Shown here in pieces: positions 25,512 through 60,938 of a stretch of 64,000 nt of DNA (the first letter of the stretch is position 1; every line of letters begins with the position of its first letter). Where the stretch lies: positions 682,001 through 746,000 of the forward strand of contig NZ_JAENZZ010000002.1 of the NCBI RefSeq assembly GCF_016612865.1, written 5' to 3'. The notes under the pieces were generated by a model. The model worked only from the letters and a program-made list of their open reading frames with translations. It searched no databases and had not been told where the DNA came from. This DNA is from Blastococcus sp. TML/M2B. GTDB taxonomy: Bacteria; Actinomycetota; Actinomycetes; Mycobacteriales; Geodermatophilaceae. The translations under genes and the position numbers were made by a program.

Positions 25512-25625
25512 ACGGCAGCCGGAGTGTCTGGCTCACCCCGTTCTCGGGGCTGACAGTGGCGGGACCGCACCGGAATCGCACCGGTTTCCTCGCTGACTGC
25601 CGCGATGGGCGCACGCTACCGCGAG
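25512..25625 (-). promoter_or_regulatory. Cobalamin riboswitch upstream of cobN
   Basis: On the minus strand the leader contains the conserved core gattccggtgcggtcccgcc followed by ACTGTCAGCC, then a hairpin (ccccgagaacgggg) and GTGAGCCAGACACTC, the AdoCbl-riboswitch B12-box region. It lies about 45-155 bases before the cobN GTG. Expected to reduce cobN expression when adenosylcobalamin is abundant. Confidence 0.9.
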
Positions 25626-26572: not shown

Positions 26573-27316
26573 ATGCCCGGGGACCCCGCCGCGCGCGCCG
26601 CGCTGGCCGCCGCGGCCGACCTCGGGCCGTTCTTCGCGACCTCCCCGGACGCGGGCCCGGACTGGGTCACCTGGGACCGGCTGACCGCCGACCCCGCCGT
26701 CCTGGGCGGCCGGCTGGCCGAGGTCCGCACGGTCCTCGCGGGCGGCCCCGGCTCCCCGGCGGTGGACCCGGTCGTGGGGGCGTCGATCGCCCACCTCGGC
26801 CTGGTCGCCCGGCTGGTCGCACCCGTGCTCGGCGCGGCGCTGCTGACCGGCACGCTGCCGGTGTCCGCCACGTCGTCGGTGCACCTGCGGCTGTCGGGCA
26901 CCAACCCCCACCCGCTGGCCGTCACGCTGCCGCGAGCGGTGCCGGCCGGCGGATCCGAGCAGCTGGCCGGCGCGTTCGACGAGCACTGGCTGGCGCCGGC
27001 GATCGCACCCCTCGGCGACGCGGTCCGGACGGCGACCGGCGTCCCGCCGCAGGTGCTCGCCGGCAACGTGGTCTCCGCGACGGCCGGCGCGTTGCGGATG
27101 GCCGCGCAGGCCCGCCCAGGGCTGGCCGCGGCGGCGGACGAGGTGCTGAGGGCGCTGCTGCGCAGCGGCCCGCTGGCCGGCACCGGCTCGCACCGGAGCG
27201 ACGGCTCCTTCGTCCGCCGGTCGTGCTGCCTCTTCTACCGGATCCCCGGCGCGGGGACCTGCGGTGACTGCGTCCTCCGGCAGGCGCCCGGGGGCACGCC
27301 CGACGACCCGGCGTAG
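26573..27316 (+). CDS. FhuF-like (2Fe-2S) ferric-iron reductase
   Basis: Cytoplasmic protein (247 aa) with the FhuF C-terminal cluster motif: SCCLFYRIPGAGTCGDCVL contains CC-x10-C-x2-C, the [2Fe-2S] ligands of siderophore-iron reductases. The N-terminal two thirds is Ala-rich with the FhuF-like segment SVHLRLSGTNPHPLAV. It would release iron from imported siderophores. Its position inside the cobalamin locus, divergent from cobF and just before a cobalamin riboswitch, is unexpected; a role in flavin/iron-dependent cobalt reduction is possible but unsupported. ATG 26573; no strong ribosome site seen. Confidence 0.85.
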   Translation: MPGDPAARAALAAAADLGPFFATSPDAGPDWVTWDRLTADPAVLGGRLAEVRTVLAGGPGSPAVDPVVGASIAHLGLVARLVAPVLGAALLTGTLPVSATSSVHLRLSGTNPHPLAVTLPRAVPAGGSEQLAGAFDEHWLAPAIAPLGDAVRTATGVPPQVLAGNVVSATAGALRMAAQARPGLAAAADEVLRALLRSGPLAGTGSHRSDGSFVRRSCCLFYRIPGAGTCGDCVLRQAPGGTPDDPA

Positions 27317-27324
27317 GGTCCCAC

Positions 27325-27475
27325 CGCCGCAGTGTCAGGGAAGCCGGTTCAAATCCGGCACGGTCCTCGCCACTGTGACCGAGGAGCAGACCCCGCATGG
27401 CACCACTGGTCAGAACATGACCGGGAAGGTCGGGGCGAGCGACGATCCGGGAGTCAGGAAACCTGCTGCGGCGCG
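27325..27475 (+). promoter_or_regulatory. Cobalamin riboswitch upstream of cbtB-cbtA
   Basis: Contains agggaagccggttcaaatcc, then ggcacggtcctcGCCACTGT, and the B12 box GAGTCAGGAAACCTGCTGC at about 27450-27468. It ends about 45 bases before the cbtB start. The core matches the AdoCbl class. Expected to shut off cobalt uptake when cobalamin is replete. Confidence 0.92.
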
Positions 27476-27518
27476 CACCATCCCACTCCACGAGGCATGG
27501 AAGAAAGGTTTCCCAGTC

Positions 27519-37237: not shown

Positions 37238-37340
37238 CGCGACGGCAGTGGAGGAAGCCCGGTGAGATTCCGGCGCGGTCCCGCCACTGTGAGCCGGCCC
37301 CCGGGTCGGTGAGTCAGGAACTCCCGCCGTCGCGCTCCTG
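37238..37340 (+). promoter_or_regulatory. Cobalamin riboswitch upstream of the chelatase-cobOBECA operon
   Basis: Contains gaggaagcccggtgagattc, then cggcgcggtcccGCCACTGT, a cggcccccgggtcg hairpin and the B12 box GTGAGTCAGGAACTCCCGCC at 37309-37328. It lies in the 215-bp gap between cobQ and the ChlI-ChlD gene, about 60 bases before the ATG. It should control the whole downstream run to cobA. Confidence 0.92.
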
Positions 37341-48438: not shown

Positions 48439-50795
48439 CCCGACTCCCCGGCCCGGTCGGTCGCCATCGCGAAGTAGTTCTCCTCCTCCTGGAGGTAGTG
48501 CAGCTCCAGCAGGGCGTGCAGCCCGTACAGGCAGGCCAGGAGGTCCTGCCGGCGCGCCGGGTCGAGCTCCGCCCCGAGGTCGAGGGCGTGCAGGTGGGTC
48601 GCCAGCCGGCGGGTGAGCCGGCCGATCTCGGCGTGCGCCCGGCTCATCGGCGCCACCGCCTCACCGCTGCCCAGCGCCCGGGCCAGGGCGGGGTACAGCT
48701 CGGCCTCCTCCGCCTCCTCGTGCGGCACGAGCCGGTCCTCCAGGGCCGCCCTCGCCCGGTGCAGCGCCTCGACCGCCTGCGGCGCGGACCCCGTCGCCAG
48801 CGCGTCCGCCGCCTCCCGCACCAGCGGGAGGACCTGGCGGAGGTCATCGTGCTCGGCCTCGAACCGCCGGAGCAGGGCCTGCGTGCCGGGCTGGACGGGC
48901 CGCCCACCGACCTCGCCACCGCGGAGCGCGCGCAGCGCGTTGACGATGACGGCGACGTCGATCGCCTCCTGGAGCAGCGCCCCGAACGCCGGCGGCAGCA
49001 ACCCGACGGCGGCCACCGCCATGGCCGCGAGCGACATGCCCATGCCCGCGACGGCGCTCTGCACCGCGATGCGGCGGGCGTGGCGGGCGATCTCCATCGC
49101 GTCGGCCACCCGGTCGAGCCGGTCGGTGGTCAGCACCACGTCGGCGGCCTCCGACGACGCGGTGGCGCCGCGTGCCCCCATCGCGATCCCCACCGTGGCG
49201 GCGGCCAGGGCGGGGGCGTCGTTGAGCCCGTCCCCGACCATGATGGTGACGGCGCGCCGCTGCTCGTCGCGGACGGCGTCGACCTTGCTCTGCGGCGTCT
49301 GCTGGGCCCGCACCTCGTCGAGGCCGAGCACTGCGCCCACCTCGCGCGCCGGTTCGGGACGGTCGCCGGTGAGCATGACCAGCCGCTCGATGCCGGCCGC
49401 CCGCAGCCGCCGCAACGTCCGGCCGGCGTCGGCCCGGACCGGGTCCCTGAGGAGGACCGCTCCGACGGGCGCGGCGTCCGCCTCCACCCACACCACCGCG
49501 CAACCGTCGAGCCCCGCCCGGCTGACGGCCGTCCGCGCCCACCCGTCCCCGGGTACCTCCTCGCGCTTGCCGACGCGGATGCGGACGCCGTCGACGGTGG
49601 CGGCGACCCCTCGGCCGGGCACCTCCTCGACGGCGGTCGGGAGCGACAGCCCCAGGCCGCGGACCCGCGCCTCGGCGACGACGGCCTCGGCGAGCACGTG
49701 CGGGGAGAGCTGATCGGCCGACGCGGCCAGCCGCAGGACCTCCTCCGGGGAGCCGCCCGGGGAGGTCAGCACCTCGACGACCGCCGGCCGGCCCGCCGTG
49801 AGCGTGCCGGTCTTGTCGACGACCATCGTGCGAGCGTGCCCCAGGTTCTCCAGCGCGCCCCCGGTGCGGACCACCACCCCCAGCCGGGAGGTCCGGGACA
49901 GGCCGGAGACGATCGCGACGGGGGCGGCCAGCAGCAGCGGGCACGGGGTGGCCACCACCAGCACCGCCACCGCGCGCTCGGCGGAGCCGCTCCCCGCCCA
50001 GGCCAGCCCGGCCACGGCGAGCGACAGCGGGAGGAACCAGGCGGCGAACCGGTCCGCCAGGCGGACCACCGGCGCGGTGTCCGCCCCCGCCTGCTCGACC
50101 AGGGCGACGATCCCCGCGTAGGTGCTGCGGGAGGCCGGTGCCGTGCACCGCAGCTCGAAGGCCCCGCCGGCGTTGAGCGTGCCGCTGCGCGCGGCGTCCC
50201 CGGCCGCCCGCTCGACGAGTTCCGCCTCCCCGCTCAGCGCCGACTCGTCCAGCACCGCCGGCCCGGCCAGCACCTCGCCGTCGACCGGCAGCACCTCACC
50301 CGGGCCCACGACCACGACGTCGTCGACGGCCACCTCTCCGACGTCGACCTCGGTCACCTCACCACCGACCCGCCGGCGGGCCGTGCGCGGCGCCCGCTCC
50401 AGCAGCGCGCGCAGGTCCCGCGTCGCCCGCCGTTGCGCGGCGGCGTCCAGCGCCCGCCCGGTCGCCAGCATCACCGCGATCAGCGCGCCGGCCAGGTGCT
50501 CGCCGACCGCCAGGGTGCCCACCAGGGCCAGCACGGCGATGAGGTCCACGCCGAGTCTCCCGCGCAGGAGCGCGACGACCACCCACCCGACGGCGGGTAC
50601 GAGGGCGAGCAGCGTCGCCGCCGCCCACAGGACGTCGTCCCAGCGGCCGGCGCCGGTCGCCCAGGCGAGCCCGCCGGCGGCGAGCAGCCCCGTCGTCGCG
50701 ACCAGGAGGGCCGGCTCGACCCACCGCCGCGCCGTCCGCAGCGGCCACGTGCCGGACCGGAGCGTCGTCGCGTCGCCGTCCCGACCGCCGTCCAT
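48435..50795 (-). CDS. P1B-5 type metal-transport ATPase with C-terminal hemerythrin domain
   Basis: Heavy-metal pump of 786 aa. There is no N-terminal metal-binding domain. Transmembrane core with the metal motif TPC (VLVVATPCPLLLAAPVAIVS), actuator motif DESALSGEAELVERAAGD, phosphorylated Asp in VVDKTGTLTAGRPAVVEVLT and hinge MVGDGLNDAPALAAATVGIA. Residues about 645-786 form a hemerythrin-like HHE domain (RFEAEHDDLRQVLP; RLVPHEEAEEAELYPALARA; LHALLELHYLQEEENYF). The TPC motif with a hemerythrin tail defines the P1B-5 subgroup, known from Acidothermus and the nickel/iron pump Nia of Sinorhizobium. Likely exports Fe(II), Ni(II) or Co(II). The diiron site may sense oxygen or iron. Confidence 0.93.
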   Translation of the reverse strand: MDGGRDGDATTLRSGTWPLRTARRWVEPALLVATTGLLAAGGLAWATGAGRWDDVLWAAATLLALVPAVGWVVVALLRGRLGVDLIAVLALVGTLAVGEHLAGALIAVMLATGRALDAAAQRRATRDLRALLERAPRTARRRVGGEVTEVDVGEVAVDDVVVVGPGEVLPVDGEVLAGPAVLDESALSGEAELVERAAGDAARSGTLNAGGAFELRCTAPASRSTYAGIVALVEQAGADTAPVVRLADRFAAWFLPLSLAVAGLAWAGSGSAERAVAVLVVATPCPLLLAAPVAIVSGLSRTSRLGVVVRTGGALENLGHARTMVVDKTGTLTAGRPAVVEVLTSPGGSPEEVLRLAASADQLSPHVLAEAVVAEARVRGLGLSLPTAVEEVPGRGVAATVDGVRIRVGKREEVPGDGWARTAVSRAGLDGCAVVWVEADAAPVGAVLLRDPVRADAGRTLRRLRAAGIERLVMLTGDRPEPAREVGAVLGLDEVRAQQTPQSKVDAVRDEQRRAVTIMVGDGLNDAPALAAATVGIAMGARGATASSEAADVVLTTDRLDRVADAMEIARHARRIAVQSAVAGMGMSLAAMAVAAVGLLPPAFGALLQEAIDVAVIVNALRALRGGEVGGRPVQPGTQALLRRFEAEHDDLRQVLPLVREAADALATGSAPQAVEALHRARAALEDRLVPHEEAEEAELYPALARALGSGEAVAPMSRAHAEIGRLTRRLATHLHALDLGAELDPARRQDLLACLYGLHALLELHYLQEEENYFAMATDRAGESG

Positions 50796-55197: not shown

Positions 55198-57930
55198 TCA
55201 CATGGCGGACCGCATCCGGCGGGGGCCGGGGTCGATGCGCGCGGTCGGCGGGCCGACGCGGGCGGTGCCGCCGGCGACCACCAGCGACCGGCCGCCGTGC
55301 CAGGGGTTGGCCGGGCCGACGATCACCGGCTCGAGGGTCAGCCGCAGCACCTCGGGCAGGTCGTCGGCGAGCCGGGCGACGCGCAGCAGCAGGTCCTCCA
55401 GCGCGGCGGTGTCCACCGGCTCCGAACCCCGCCAGCCGTCCAGCAGCGGCCAGGCGCGCGGGCCCCGCACCAGCTCGGCGGCGTCCAGGTCGGTGAGCGG
55501 CAGGGTGCGGAACGCGCGGTCACCGAGCAGCTCGGTGGCCACGCCCCCGACGCCGAAGCTGACCAGCGCGCCGAACGACGGGTCGTCGACGATCTCCACG
55601 ACCGTGGCCACGCCCGGGGCGGCCATCTCCTGCACGATCACCGGGTCGCCGGAGGGGATGGCCGCGTACGCCGCGCGCACGTCGTCGGCGTCCACCAGGT
55701 CCAGCCGCACGCCGCCGAGATCGGACCGGTGCCGCAGCCACGGCGCGGTCGACTTGAGCACCACCGGGTAGCCGACCTCGGCCGCGGCGGCGACCGCGGA
55801 CTCGGGGTCGGTGACCGTGCGGGTGCGCAGCAGCGGCACCCCGTACGCGCCGAGCAGCGCGATCAGCTCGTCGTCGTCCAGCTCGCGGCCGGCCGGGGCC
55901 GAGGCCAGCGCCCGCGCCACCACCGCGCGACCGGCCTCCTCGTCCACGTCCGGCAGGTCGGGCACGTCGCCGACGGGGCGGCGTCGCCAGCGCGCGTACT
56001 CGCTCGCCTTGGCCAGCGCGATCACCGCGCGCTCCGGGGTGCTGTACGAGGGCACCGAACCGCGGGCCGGCATGCCGTGCTCGTCGAGGACGGCGAGCTC
56101 CGGCGGCACCCCCTCGGTCGACAGGAAGCTGGCCACCACCGGCTTGGTCGCACCCGCGGCCACCTCGCGCAGGGCCGGGCCGAACTCGTGCGAGCCCGCC
56201 ATCAGCGGCGGCAGGAACACCGCGATGACCGCGTCGACGCCGTCGTCGTCGACCGCGGCCTGCAGCGCGGCGGCGAACTGCTCGGGCGTGCCGTTCACGC
56301 CGATGTCGACCGGCTCGCGGTGGGCCAGCTGCAGCCCCTCCTCGAGGACCGCGTCGGCGACGAGCACCCCGATGGCGGTGGAGTTGCCGACGATGGCCAC
56401 CCGGTCGCCGGCCGGCAGCGGCTGGTGGGCCAGCAGGGTGCCGACGTCGAACAGCTGGGCCACGGTCTCCACGCGGATGACGCCGGCGGAGGCGAACAGC
56501 GCCGCGACCGACTGCTCGGGGACCGCCACCGACGTGCCGGCCAGGCCCGGCGTCACGCCGACGTGCCGGCCGCTCTTCACCGCGACCACCGGCTTGGTGC
56601 GGCCGACCGTGCGGGCCAGGCGGGCGAACTTGCGCGGGTTGCCGAAGCTCTCCAGGTGCAGCAGCACGACCTCGGTACCGGGGTCGGTCGCCCAGTACTG
56701 GAGCAGGTCGTTGCCGCTGACGTCGGCGCGGTTGCCGGCGGAGACGAAGGTGGACAGCCCGATGCCGCGGCTGCGCGCCCGCTCCAGCAGCGCGACGCCG
56801 AGCGCACCGGACTGGGCGAAGAAGCCCACCCGGCCGCGCCCCGGGACCATCGGCGCCAGCGAGGAGTTCAGCCGCACCGCGGGGTCGGTGTTGACGATGC
56901 CCAGGCAGTTCGGGCCCACGACCCGCATGCCCGACGCCCGGGCCGAGGCGACCAGGCGGCGCTCCACCGCCCGGCCCTCCGGGCCGGTCTCACCGAACCC
57001 GCCGGAGACGACGACCAGCCCGCGCACCCGCTTGCGGCGGCAGGCCTCGACCACGCCCTCCACCTCGTCGGCGGGCACGGCGAGCACCGCCAGGTCCACG
57101 TCGTCGGGGATGGACTCGATGTCGGCGTAGGCGGGGACGCCGCGCACGTGCCGGGCCGAGGGGTTCACCGGGTAGACCGGGCCGGCGAAGCCGTAGTCGA
57201 GCAGGTGCCGCAGCAGCGCGTTGCCGATCTTGCCCGGGTCGTTGCTGGCACCCACGACCGCGACCGACGACGGCGTGAGCAGCCGGGCGATCGACCGGGA
57301 CTCGCTGCGCTGCTCGCGCTCGTAGGCGACGGCCAGCGCGTCCTCGGTCTGCTCGATCGGGAAGGTGAGGTGGACGACGCCGTCCTCGTAGGAGCGCTTG
57401 GACTTGTAGCCGGCGTCCTGGAAGACCCGGACCATCGAGCTGTTCTGCGCCAGCACCTCAGCGACGAACCGCTTGATGCCCCGCTCGCGGCCGGCGGCGG
57501 CGAGGTGCTCCAGGAGCACCGAGCCCAGACCGCGGCGCTGGTGGGCGTCCTCGATGAGGAAGGCGACCTCGGCGTCGTCGGTGCCGGGGTAGCGGTCGTA
57601 GCGGCCCACCCCGATGACCTGGTCGCCGAGCAGCACGACGAAGGCGACCCGGGCGTCGTGGTCGACGTGGGTGAACCGGTGCAGCTCCTTGTCCGAGAGC
57701 CGCTTCATCGGCCCGAAGAACCGGTAGTACCGCGTCTGGTCGCTGCTGCGGTCCATGAGCCCGACCAGCCCGTCGGCGTCCTCGGGGGTGATCGGCCGCA
57801 GGTGCACGGTGCCGCCGTCGGCGGCCACGATGTCGGCCTCCCAGCCCGGCGGCGGCTGCGGGGTGTTCTCCTCAGGGGTCACGCCGTCCTCCGGCCGCGT
57901 CCCGGGAGCCGGTCGCGGATCGTCAGTCAC
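55198..57930 (-). CDS. GNAT acetyltransferase fused to ADP-forming acyl-CoA synthetase-like domains (Pat-like)
   Basis: Protein of 910 aa. The N-terminal GNAT domain (about 38-195) has VHLRPITPEDADGLVGLMDR and the acetyl-CoA loop EDAHQRRGLGSVLLEHLAAA. A CoA-binding domain follows (SVAVVGASNDPGKIGNALLR), then succinyl-CoA-ligase-like domains (FFAQSGALGVALLERARSRG) and a C-terminal ATP-grasp (VAAAAEVGYPVVLKSTAPWL). GNAT-first order is the actinobacterial arrangement; proteobacterial Pat has GNAT last. Such proteins acetylate or propionylate lysines, often acyl-CoA synthetases. The start overlaps the AcuC deacetylase gene, giving an acetylation/deacetylation pair. Confidence 0.93.
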   Translation of the reverse strand: MTDDPRPAPGTRPEDGVTPEENTPQPPPGWEADIVAADGGTVHLRPITPEDADGLVGLMDRSSDQTRYYRFFGPMKRLSDKELHRFTHVDHDARVAFVVLLGDQVIGVGRYDRYPGTDDAEVAFLIEDAHQRRGLGSVLLEHLAAAGRERGIKRFVAEVLAQNSSMVRVFQDAGYKSKRSYEDGVVHLTFPIEQTEDALAVAYEREQRSESRSIARLLTPSSVAVVGASNDPGKIGNALLRHLLDYGFAGPVYPVNPSARHVRGVPAYADIESIPDDVDLAVLAVPADEVEGVVEACRRKRVRGLVVVSGGFGETGPEGRAVERRLVASARASGMRVVGPNCLGIVNTDPAVRLNSSLAPMVPGRGRVGFFAQSGALGVALLERARSRGIGLSTFVSAGNRADVSGNDLLQYWATDPGTEVVLLHLESFGNPRKFARLARTVGRTKPVVAVKSGRHVGVTPGLAGTSVAVPEQSVAALFASAGVIRVETVAQLFDVGTLLAHQPLPAGDRVAIVGNSTAIGVLVADAVLEEGLQLAHREPVDIGVNGTPEQFAAALQAAVDDDGVDAVIAVFLPPLMAGSHEFGPALREVAAGATKPVVASFLSTEGVPPELAVLDEHGMPARGSVPSYSTPERAVIALAKASEYARWRRRPVGDVPDLPDVDEEAGRAVVARALASAPAGRELDDDELIALLGAYGVPLLRTRTVTDPESAVAAAAEVGYPVVLKSTAPWLRHRSDLGGVRLDLVDADDVRAAYAAIPSGDPVIVQEMAAPGVATVVEIVDDPSFGALVSFGVGGVATELLGDRAFRTLPLTDLDAAELVRGPRAWPLLDGWRGSEPVDTAALEDLLLRVARLADDLPEVLRLTLEPVIVGPANPWHGGRSLVVAGGTARVGPPTARIDPGPRRMRSAM

Positions 57931-59104
57931 GGGGGTCGTCCGGGTCGAGGCCGAACAGCGGGAAGCTGGCCCGGCGGGTGCGCAGGATCGCCCGGTCCAC
58001 CCGGTTCTCGGTGAACGCGTCCCAGCGGGCGAAACCGGTGTAGCCGCCCTCGGTCATGTGCGTGGGTGGCCGGGCGCGCAGCCCCCGGGACACGACGTCG
58101 TCCCGCCAGGACTGCGGGATCTCGGTGGCCGGGTCCAGCGGGGCGCCCACCGCCTCGGCGATGAGGTGCGTCCAGGCGCGCGGCACGGCGCGGACCAGGC
58201 CGTAGCCCCCGCCGCCGAGCGCGATCCACCTGCCGTCGCAGATCTCGTGGGCCAGCTCGTGCATCAGCCGGTAGCTGGCGCGCTGCCCGTCGATGGTGAG
58301 CCCGAGGTCCGCGAGGGGGTCCTCGTGGTGGGCGTCGCAGCCGCACTGGGTGACCAGGATCTGCGGCTGGAAGGCCCGCAGCACGCTGGGGACGACGGCG
58401 CTGAAGGCCCGCAGCCAGGCGGAGTCCTCGGTGCCGTTGGGCAGCGCCAGGTTGACCGCGCTGCCCGATGCCTTCTCGGCGTCCCCTGTCTCCTCGGGGA
58501 AGCCGGTGCCCGGCCAGAGGGTGAGCGGGGTCTGGTGGATGCTCACGGTGAGCACCCGCGGGTCGTCGTAGAAGGCGGCCTGGACGCCGTCGCCGTGGTG
58601 GACGTCGAGGTCGACGTAGGCGATCCGCTCGTAGCCCTGCCCGAGCAGCCAGGCGATGGCCACGGCGGCGTCGTTGAAGATGCAGAACCCCGACGCGGCG
58701 TCGCGCATGGCGTGGTGCAGCCCGCCGGCGATGTTCACGACGTGCTGCGCGGCGCCGCTGTGGATCTGCTGGGCGGCCATCACCGAGCCGCCGGTGATCA
58801 GCGCGGCGGCGTCGTACATGTCGGGGAAGATCGGGTTGTCCGAGGTGCCCAGGCCGTGGCCCACCGCCGGGTCCGCGGGCGCGCGGCGCACCGCCTCGAG
58901 GTACTCCGGGTCGTGCACCAGCGTGAGCAGCTCCTCGCCGGCCGGGGCGGGGCGCTCCACCCGCACCCGGTCGCTGGACAGCACGCCGAGGGTGTCGGCC
59001 AGGCGCATGGTGAGGTCCAGCCGCACCGGGTGCAGCGGGTGCTCGCCGCCCATCGTGTAGCCCAGCAGGCTCTCGTCCCACACGACGGTGACCGAGTCGC
59101 TCAT
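57923..59104 (-). CDS. acuC: AcuC-type histone-deacetylase-family protein
   Basis: Zn-dependent lysine deacetylase homologue (393 aa). Catalytic features: NIAGGLHHAMRDAASGFCIF with the His pair, zinc ligands in IAYVDLDVHHGDGVQAAFYD (Asp and His), QCGCDAHHEDPLADLGLTID with the second Asp, and IALGGGGYGLVRAVPRAWTH. ATG 59104 precedes SVTVVWDESLLGYTMGGEHP. It overlaps the Pat-like gene by 8 bp, as expected for an enzyme reversing its modification (AcuA/AcuC logic). Confidence 0.94.
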   Translation of the reverse strand: MSDSVTVVWDESLLGYTMGGEHPLHPVRLDLTMRLADTLGVLSSDRVRVERPAPAGEELLTLVHDPEYLEAVRRAPADPAVGHGLGTSDNPIFPDMYDAAALITGGSVMAAQQIHSGAAQHVVNIAGGLHHAMRDAASGFCIFNDAAVAIAWLLGQGYERIAYVDLDVHHGDGVQAAFYDDPRVLTVSIHQTPLTLWPGTGFPEETGDAEKASGSAVNLALPNGTEDSAWLRAFSAVVPSVLRAFQPQILVTQCGCDAHHEDPLADLGLTIDGQRASYRLMHELAHEICDGRWIALGGGGYGLVRAVPRAWTHLIAEAVGAPLDPATEIPQSWRDDVVSRGLRARPPTHMTEGGYTGFARWDAFTENRVDRAILRTRRASFPLFGLDPDDPRD

Positions 59105-59554
59105 CGCACCTCCTCGTGCAGCTGGCCTGCCCGGACGCACGCCGGCGCCCGACCGCCGGCAGGGGCGACGCTACCGGCGCCGACCGGGTGACGCGCCCCC
59201 TGCGACCCGCGTCGCGGGACCCGGACGGGTGGCGCAGCGCCCGTAGACTGGCCGCCGACCCGGAGGAGTACCTGTGAACGACCTGATCGACACCACGGAG
59301 ATGTACCTCCGCACCATCTTCGAGCTCGAGGAGGAGGGCATCACCCCTCTGCGGGCCCGGATCGCGGAGCGTCTCCACCAGAGCGGTCCCACCGTGAGCC
59401 AGACGGTGGCCCGCATGGAGCGCGACGGCCTGCTGACGGTGGAGGGCGACCGGCACCTCCAGCTCTCCGACGAGGGCCGCCAGCTGGCGACGGCGGTGAT
59501 GCGCAAGCACCGGCTCGCCGAGTGCCTCCTGGTCGACGTCATCGGGCTGGACTA

Positions 59555-60486
59555 GAGCGTGTCTGCCAAAGATCTGAGGGTTCGCAGGCGACGCTCGACG
59601 AATGCTGCGCGCGGACGAGATTCCAGACGAGTTGTGGGAGCTGATCGAGCCGGTGCTGCCGGCAGGCGGCCATCAAGGGCGGCCGTGGAATGACCACCGG
59701 CTGACGCTGGAGGGGATCAGTTGGAGGTTTCGCACGGGGTCGCCGTGGCGTGACCTGCCCGAGCACTTCGGGGCCTGGCAGTCGGTGTGGGAGCGCCACC
59801 GTCGGTGGTCTGACGACGGCACCTACCTGCGCATGTTCGCCGCGGTTCGCGCCGCAGCCCCCGAGCGCGACGAGCAGCTGCGCAGCCTGTTGTCGGTCGA
59901 CTCGACCATCGCCCGTGCCCATCAGCACTCCGCCGGCGCGCGGCACGAGGGCCACACAGGGGGCCCTGTCGAATGACAAGAACCTGACCAACGAGCCCGC
60001 CGATCACGCTCTGGGTCGTTCCCGCGGCGGGCTGAGCACCAAGATCCACGCGCTGACCGACCGGTACTGCTGCCCGCTGACGGTGCTGCTCTCACCGGGC
60101 CAGGCCGGTGACAACCCGCAGCTGATCCCGCTGTTGGAAGCCCACGACCGCGGCGACACCGGCGCCTTCCGGCTGCTGGCCGACAAGGCGTACTCCCACC
60201 CCAGCACCCGGGCGCACCTACGGGCGAAAAGGATCGCTCACACCATTCCCGAACGCAGCGACCAGATCGCCCGCCGCAAGGCGAAGGGCTCGGCCGGAGG
60301 CCGGCCACCTGCCTGCGATCCGGAGCGCTACAAGGACCGCAACACCGTCGAACGCGGCTTCGGCCGGCTCAAGCAGTGGCGCGCCATCGCCACCCGATAC
60401 GACAAGTACGCCACCACCTACCTGGGCGGCGTCCTCCTCGCCTGCATGATCATCCACCACCGGGTCCGCAGTTAGCAGACACGCTC
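59555..60486 (+). mobile_element. IS5-family insertion sequence (IS427-like), 932 bp
   Basis: Terminal inverted repeats GAGCGTGTCTGC at 59555-59566 and its complement at 60475-60486. A TA dinucleotide flanks both ends (59553-59554 and 60487-60488) as the target duplication. It carries a transposase in two overlapping frames. Same orientation as ideR, which it splits after codon 93. Confidence 0.92.
59602..60475 (+). CDS. IS5-family transposase in two frames (ORF A / ORF B)
   Basis: Part A (59602-59976, 124 aa) has the N-terminal DUF4096-like PDELWELIEPVLPAGGHQGR and WRDLPEHFGAWQSVWERHRR with the first catalytic Asp in LLSVDSTIARAHQH. Part B continues one base forward from the GGGGG near 59957-59961 (ALSNDKNLTNEPADHALGRS) to 60475, with the second Asp in RLLADKAYSHPSTRAHLRAK and Glu in NTVERGFGRLKQWRAIATRY. 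Two-ORF transposases with frameshifting are normal in this group. But the +1 direction equals the suspected sequence errors elsewhere, so either explanation holds. Confidence 0.88.
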
Positions 60487-60938
60487 TACGCCGACGTCCA
60501 CGAGGAGGCCTGCCGCTGGGAGCACGTCATGAGCGAGGCGGTCGAGCGCCGGCTGCTCGCCCTGCTCGGCAACCCCAGCGTCTCGCCGTTCGGCAACCCG
60601 ATCCCGGGCCTGGAGGCGCTGCGCGGGGACGAGCCGCTGGGCGGCGAGACCTCCGCGGTGCTCGACGCGCTCACCGTGCTCTCCACGACCGCGACCCCCG
60701 AGGGGCGTCCGGTCGTGATCCGTCGGATCAGCGAGCAGCTCCAGGAGGACGCGACGCTGCTGCGGTCGCTGGCCGACCACGGCGTGCGCCCCGGCGTCAC
60801 CATGCGGGCCCGGCTGGTCGAGGGGTCGGTGGTCCTGGACGACTACCCGCTCCCCCTGGACGTGGCCCGGCACATGTTCGTGAGCGCGGTCGACGAGGAG
60901 CTCACCCCGCTGGAGGCCGCTCCGCTGCTCTGAGTGCG

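Follow-up and report, generated by a model that had tools for sequence, protein, structure and literature searches.

The interruption of an iron-repressor gene, ideR/dtxR, by an insertion sequence, found in a 64-kb stretch of DNA (hereafter, the window), raises the question of whether the host has lost the iron-dependent control of its uptake genes and, if so, how long ago. The answer we consider probable is that an IS5-type insertion has recently inactivated the only ideR/dtxR gene found in this Blastococcus-like genome, an event that would derepress iron uptake. This explanation covers an allele fixed in the strain as well as an allele carried by part of the culture. The insertion event itself is ordinary, the disruption of genes by insertion sequences being routine.

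An earlier note on this DNA had described ideR as split by an IS5-family element, and profile matches, TA flanks and the alignment to intact relatives agree with that description; its coordinates and its 241-aa protein length hold as well (932-bp element, TA duplication, 93+148 = 241). The features are collected in Table 1. The element, 932 bp long and with 14 of 15 bp matching between its ends, lies inside codon 94 of the gene and is flanked by a TA duplication. The head frame opens with a GTG start, runs for 93 codons and is terminated by a TAG (59553-59555), formed by the duplicated TA and base 1 of the element, thus breaking a continuous frame which resumes past the element with the 148 codons of the tail (60487-60930) and ends at a TGA stop (60931-60933). 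Translated separately and unjoined, the two pieces add up to the 241 residues of the intact protein at three related loci, L016, L017 (B. aurantiacus) and L018, to which they align as consecutive parts of one protein, with identities of 100% (head) and 92-93% (tail).

Table 1. Features of the interrupted ideR/dtxR locus and riboswitch matches elsewhere in the window
Feature	Position	Strand	Content or evidence
Cobalamin riboswitch matches	27313-27484; 25522-25591; 37251-37323	+; -; +	Rfam
Histone-deacetylase/AcuC-like gene, divergent neighbour of ideR	57923..59140	-	PF00850 E 1e-86
5' piece of ideR/dtxR	59274..59552	+	residues 1-93; PF01325 E 1.5e-19
Left TA target duplication copy	59553..59554	.	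flank comparison
IS5-type insertion sequence	59555..60486	+	NF033580 transpos_IS5_3, both ORFs above cut-off
Transposase orfA, 124 aa	59602..59976	+	DUF4096 E 3.4e-26
Transposase orfB open frame, DDE domain	59750..60475	+	PF01609 E 6.2e-14; NF033580 149 bits
Right TA target duplication copy	60487..60488	.	flank comparison
3' piece of ideR/dtxR	60487..60933	+	residues 94-241; PF02742 E 1.5e-13

The 5' piece holds the DNA-binding head and the first part of the metal/dimer domain, and matched positions 2-92 of the 233-position profile NF053665, which describes the iron-dependent repressor DtxR (E 1.6e-55, 188 bits). The 3' piece holds four metal ligands, the remaining dimer domain and a C-terminal (FeoA/SH3-like) domain; in profile queries started one codon earlier, inside the element, it scored 116 bits with NF053665 (profile 95-231) and 22.7 bits with FeoA, for which the cut-off is 23. 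Neither piece reaches the 290 bits that NF053665 requires of a whole protein, which is normal for fragments, and the PF02742 domain is itself divided, with positions 2-29 in the head and 32-69 of 70 in the tail. The same continuity was seen against known structures, the head aligning to residues 1-92 of IdeR chains (gapless in the 1b1b and 2isy alignments) and the tail to residues 95-203 of IdeR 1fx7.

Judging from PF01325, PF02742, NF053665 and the translations, the ancestral gene has the N-terminal DNA-binding and metal/dimer domains together with all seven metal ligands, which we take to be Met10, His79, Glu83, His98, Cys102, Glu105 and His106 of IdeR/DtxR. The first three were read in the head translation, while the tail translation has H at residue 5, C at 9, E at 12 and H at 13, corresponding to 98, 102, 105 and 106 when counted from 93; the alignment of tail residue 2 to residue 95 of IdeR 1fx7 gives the same register. 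Translations and register thus place the seven ligands where they had been proposed, and the 93-residue peptide previously described, with the DNA-binding head and without four of the seven ligands, can be read directly from the translation. In the present allele the head lacks His98, Cys102, Glu105 and His106 together with the larger part of the dimer domain, and the DNA-binding portion is missing from the tail. Both pieces being incomplete, neither should form a metal-activated dimer.

The mycobacterial setting implied in the earlier note is unsupported; a mycobacterial host was discarded and the DNA placed in Blastococcus or a very close neighbour of it, since the four best relatives of the acuC-like neighbour all belong to Blastococcus (Blastococcus sp. 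DSM 44205, 92%; B. aurantiacus, 93%; B. aggregatus, 90%; Blastococcus sp. TF02-09, 91%), in a search from which the host genome's own records were possibly left out. The Blastococcus loci L016 and L017 encode proteins with 92% and 93% identity to the acuC-like protein, respectively, and the acuC-ideR neighbourhood matches that of relatives. The ideR gene was open throughout, with 229-244 residues, in all 30 loci examined out of the 79 retrieved by the acuC search.

Within the family, 110 of 112 genomes matched NF053665 and 109 exceeded its cut-off, with no stops in the gene; the exceptions were the host genome, whose gene is in two pieces, and a pair of unmatched assemblies of 81% and 70% completeness. 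When the comparison is restricted to a completeness of 90% or more and a contamination of 5% or less, all 96 genomes matched and the host was the only one not above the cut-off. The disrupted state is therefore unusual within its family, as far as these profile searches reach. In a phylum sample requested at a completeness of at least 95%, 352 of 398 genomes matched NF053665 (71 above the cut-off), including all 27 same-order genomes among the matches listed, at E 2.2e-95 or better. The remaining 46 genomes indicate that lineages lacking such a gene exist; the 20 of them that were listed are all outside the class. No IS-disrupted ideR/dtxR of Geodermatophilaceae was found among the titles and abstract openings listed by searches of the open-licence PMC literature, an absence that carries little weight.

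The inserted element was assigned through its two ORFs, scoring 121 and 149 bits with NF033580 (cut-off 110). We take it to be a member of the IS427-like group of the IS5 family. Members of this group have terminal inverted repeats and a short TA duplication, and two frames that overlap and are linked by a programmed frameshift. The match of orfB to the IS5 model starts at orfB residue 68 (~59951), in the +1 frame and overlapping the end of orfA, an arrangement that suggests programmed frameshifting in this element too. Two relatives of orfA (L131, 81% identity; L132, 66%) show the same layout of two overlapping frames in +1 relation, so that the two-frame structure looks like the normal state of the family rather than damage; in L132 the orfB frame holds a stop upstream of the homologous region.

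A second copy, 100% identical, was found on contig 1 of the same genome (G000 C1 854318-855249; L003 1501-2432). It has separate flanks and is likewise bounded by a duplicated TA, so that TA is duplicated at both copies. The two flanks of this second copy suggest a palindromic target around the TA, and the open frame pointing outward on its right side has a long Asp/Glu repeat tract and no Pfam match. DNA searches with the element gave only partial matches, of 64-93% identity, in 12 of 22 congeners, and matches at E 1e-100 in four of 298 genomes of the order sample, host genome included; a long residence of the element in the genus is thus unsupported. These searches scored part of the initial candidates (40 of 250 in the host's own genome, 21 per genome in the congeners and two per genome in the order), therefore the copy numbers, two in this genome, are lower bounds. 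In comparison with the IS5 family, IS5_3 type (NF033580), the element has the same transposase model, a length of ~0.93 kb, TA at both copies and two frames; it differs in having matched no named element. Outside the host genome its best relatives, likewise without a name, are in G104 (91% identity along 356 bp, at contig starts), G124 (80% along 681 bp) and G142 (73% along about 883 bp). On this sequence comparison, it looks like a recent, low-copy arrival.

The age of the insertion was approached through the state of the two pieces, neither of which contains a stop or a frameshift. Private codons, namely codons at which one of four sequences (the window and three of nine relatives, L016, L017 and L018) differs while the other three agree, were counted with the stop codon of the tail included; the counts are small and do not amount to a test. 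Of the private codons in the window tail, 12 are synonymous and 5 change an amino acid; the corresponding counts are 11 and 5 in L017, 5 and 1 in L016, and 4 and 3 in L018. The window head has 8 synonymous and none changing an amino acid. The larger number of private changes of both kinds in the window tail than in L016 and L018 was counted against a recent loss. However, these two loci differ from one another at 24 tail codons, a closeness that in itself lowers their counts. The fair comparison is with L017, relative to which the window has no excess, indicating that the gene was under selection until recently. An old pseudogene was accordingly ruled out by the lack of decay, there being no stops, no frameshifts and no excess of amino-acid changes over L017. 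Since the element is identical to its second copy and the pieces show no decay, the transposition of this low-copy element into codon 94 looks very recent.

The loss of such a repressor has precedents. The M. smegmatis ideR mutant, considered here by a reference title only, likewise lost its iron repressor and is viable in some iron conditions; by reference titles, ideR of that species and dmdR1 of S. coelicolor are reportedly dispensable. As given in the excerpted text of PMC1382209, the C. glutamicum dtxR gene is dispensable under specific conditions, as was found earlier for dtxR of C. diphtheriae, and the C. glutamicum dtxR mutant fails in CGXII minimal medium and grows like the wild type in low-iron CGXII. 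According to the same excerpts, ideR of M. tuberculosis is essential, its inactivation requiring either another copy of the gene or a suppressor (PMC1382209). The statement that ideR is essential or highly important in mycobacteria, made in advance of this analysis, agrees with M. tuberculosis; dtxR of C. glutamicum can be spared in low-iron medium (PMC1382209, in the part cited above). Essentiality is hence a weak argument, and loss of ideR would be tolerable in principle in Blastococcus, most easily at low iron. In C. glutamicum IB2103 and C. diphtheriae C7(beta)18.5, as they appear in the excerpts of PMC1382209, the repressor was lost by deletion or transposon with viability in some iron conditions; those and the M. 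smegmatis strain are laboratory mutants, whereas here the allele stands in a genome assembly and in another family.

A possible, if rather unlikely, variant is that not all of the sequenced culture or population carries the insertion, which could mark, for instance, a subpopulation with an advantage in low-iron medium, and that the assembly reports that form. It is a special case of the explanation preferred here, and the likelihoods assigned to the two overlap. The lack of decay and the identical second copy, pointing to a young event, are compatible with it, and the dependence of the C. glutamicum dtxR mutant on the iron level of CGXII, in the excerpted part of PMC1382209, means that selection could depend on the medium. 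Against it, the element lies inside a 2.04-Mb contig of a 4.11-Mb, four-contig assembly with both gene halves at its sides, so that the inserted form was the main or sole one for the assembler, and nothing in the data points directly to heterogeneity.

Searches with PF01325 and PF02742, in which all initial candidates were scored, gave one and two places in the genome, respectively, all belonging to the interrupted gene; a second DtxR-family gene was thus not found in this 96.76%-complete genome, whose missing part may hold one. Compared with the IdeR/DtxR repressors (IdeR 1fx7, DtxR 1bi0), the gene is alike in that its head and tail align to IdeR and match NF053665 in two consecutive pieces, and in the iron-box-like sites near iron genes described below, but it is interrupted at codon 94 and no intact copy was found in the genome. 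Fur-family genes number three here and three to five in the 22 congeners, placing the host at the genus minimum; one is next to a katG-like gene and another next to a gene for a metal ABC permease, as read by eye from the translations. The DtxR-family search of the genome and the Fur-family comparison with the 22 congeners gave no sign of a gained regulator of either family, and an extra Fur-family regulator was ruled out by the count. The second regulator that had been raised as one possibility therefore finds no candidate in these two families, the DtxR search giving a single locus and the Fur-family number lying within the range of the genus.

It is very unlikely that function persists, either through the head and the tail, or a tail restarted at ATG 60529, acting as a split repressor, or through a Fur-family protein covering the regulon. 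Both pieces are undecayed, the candidate restart ATG 60529 stands behind a GGGAG in the tail, and three Fur-family genes are available; yet the cut falls inside the metal/dimer domain, on either side of which PF02742 is divided, no congener has fewer Fur-family genes, and the youth of the insertion accounts equally well for the lack of decay. An assembly artefact, by misjoining of the two element copies or by a false insertion, is highly improbable: two identical copies in a genome are a usual cause of wrong joins, but here a single gene continues in register from one flank to the other with 2 bp duplicated, the other copy sits between separate flanks with a TA duplication too, and the acuC-ideR neighbourhood is as in relatives. 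We give hardly any credence to a reversible iron-regulation switch, in which precise excision of the element and of the 2-bp duplication in some cells would let the strain alternate between repressed and always-on uptake, with low or high iron selecting each state.

If, as we favour, the insertion has recently inactivated the gene, its consequences would be felt at the IdeR boxes. A search with a consensus that we take to be that of the IdeR box (at most three mismatches) retrieved three sites in the genome and none with a reversed control pattern. The first precedes, by 19 bases, the start (near G000 C2 1970277) of a gene for a Peripla_BP_2 protein (PF01497, 92 bits), whose best NCBIfam match, below cut-off, is an Fe(3+) dicitrate binding protein; from its sequence, this FecB-like, siderophore-type binding protein reads like a lipoprotein. 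The second (L099 1501-1519) has a ribosomal protein S4-type gene (above cut-off) at 13 bases and, 32 bases away on the other side, a gene for a 262-residue protein without an assigned family; an S4 gene under the control of iron would be out of the ordinary. The third is about 259 bases from the likely start, near G000 C1 901603, of a bacterioferritin gene (TIGR00754, above cut-off) and, on the other side, 13 or 55 bases from possible starts of a PEP-mutase-family gene.

The gene context was common to congener loci for site 1 (5/5), site 2 (3/3) and the bacterioferritin of site 3 (3/3), the PEP-mutase gene being whole in one and partial in another of the three site-3 loci; these 11 loci were selected for having a similar site and speak for a common gene context, not for site frequency. 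In the genus, 22 of 23 genomes, host included, have at least one box-like site, the exception being G021. In M. tuberculosis, according to the excerpted text of PMC9132128, uptake genes are repressed from a box that overlaps their promoter or transcription start, and the boxes at bfrA and bfrB, which lie farther away, are associated with activation. Since box-like sites remain at iron genes, derepressed uptake is plausible: the remaining boxes would be unoccupied and siderophore uptake on regardless of iron, while bacterioferritin might lose an activator. By analogy with M. tuberculosis, uptake would run permanently and the induction of bacterioferritin would perhaps be weaker. The only iron repressor gene found being cut, an off switch for iron uptake has probably disappeared.

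If fixed, the allele would make this strain a natural IdeR-null actinomycete with its iron boxes in place, offering a ready comparison with intact congeners on the cost of IdeR loss and the iron conditions that permit it. If confined to a subpopulation of the culture, it would suggest that the medium exerted selection while the strain was being isolated or passaged.

Two further observations concern the window at large. Its sole ARAGORN tRNA, a 94-base tRNA-Asp on the minus strand (49587-49680), has no Rfam match at the gathering score and is probably a false positive, by eye resembling G+C-rich coding sequence. Three cobalamin riboswitches exceed the Rfam gathering score, one full-length (103 bits) and two short (39 and 37 bits).
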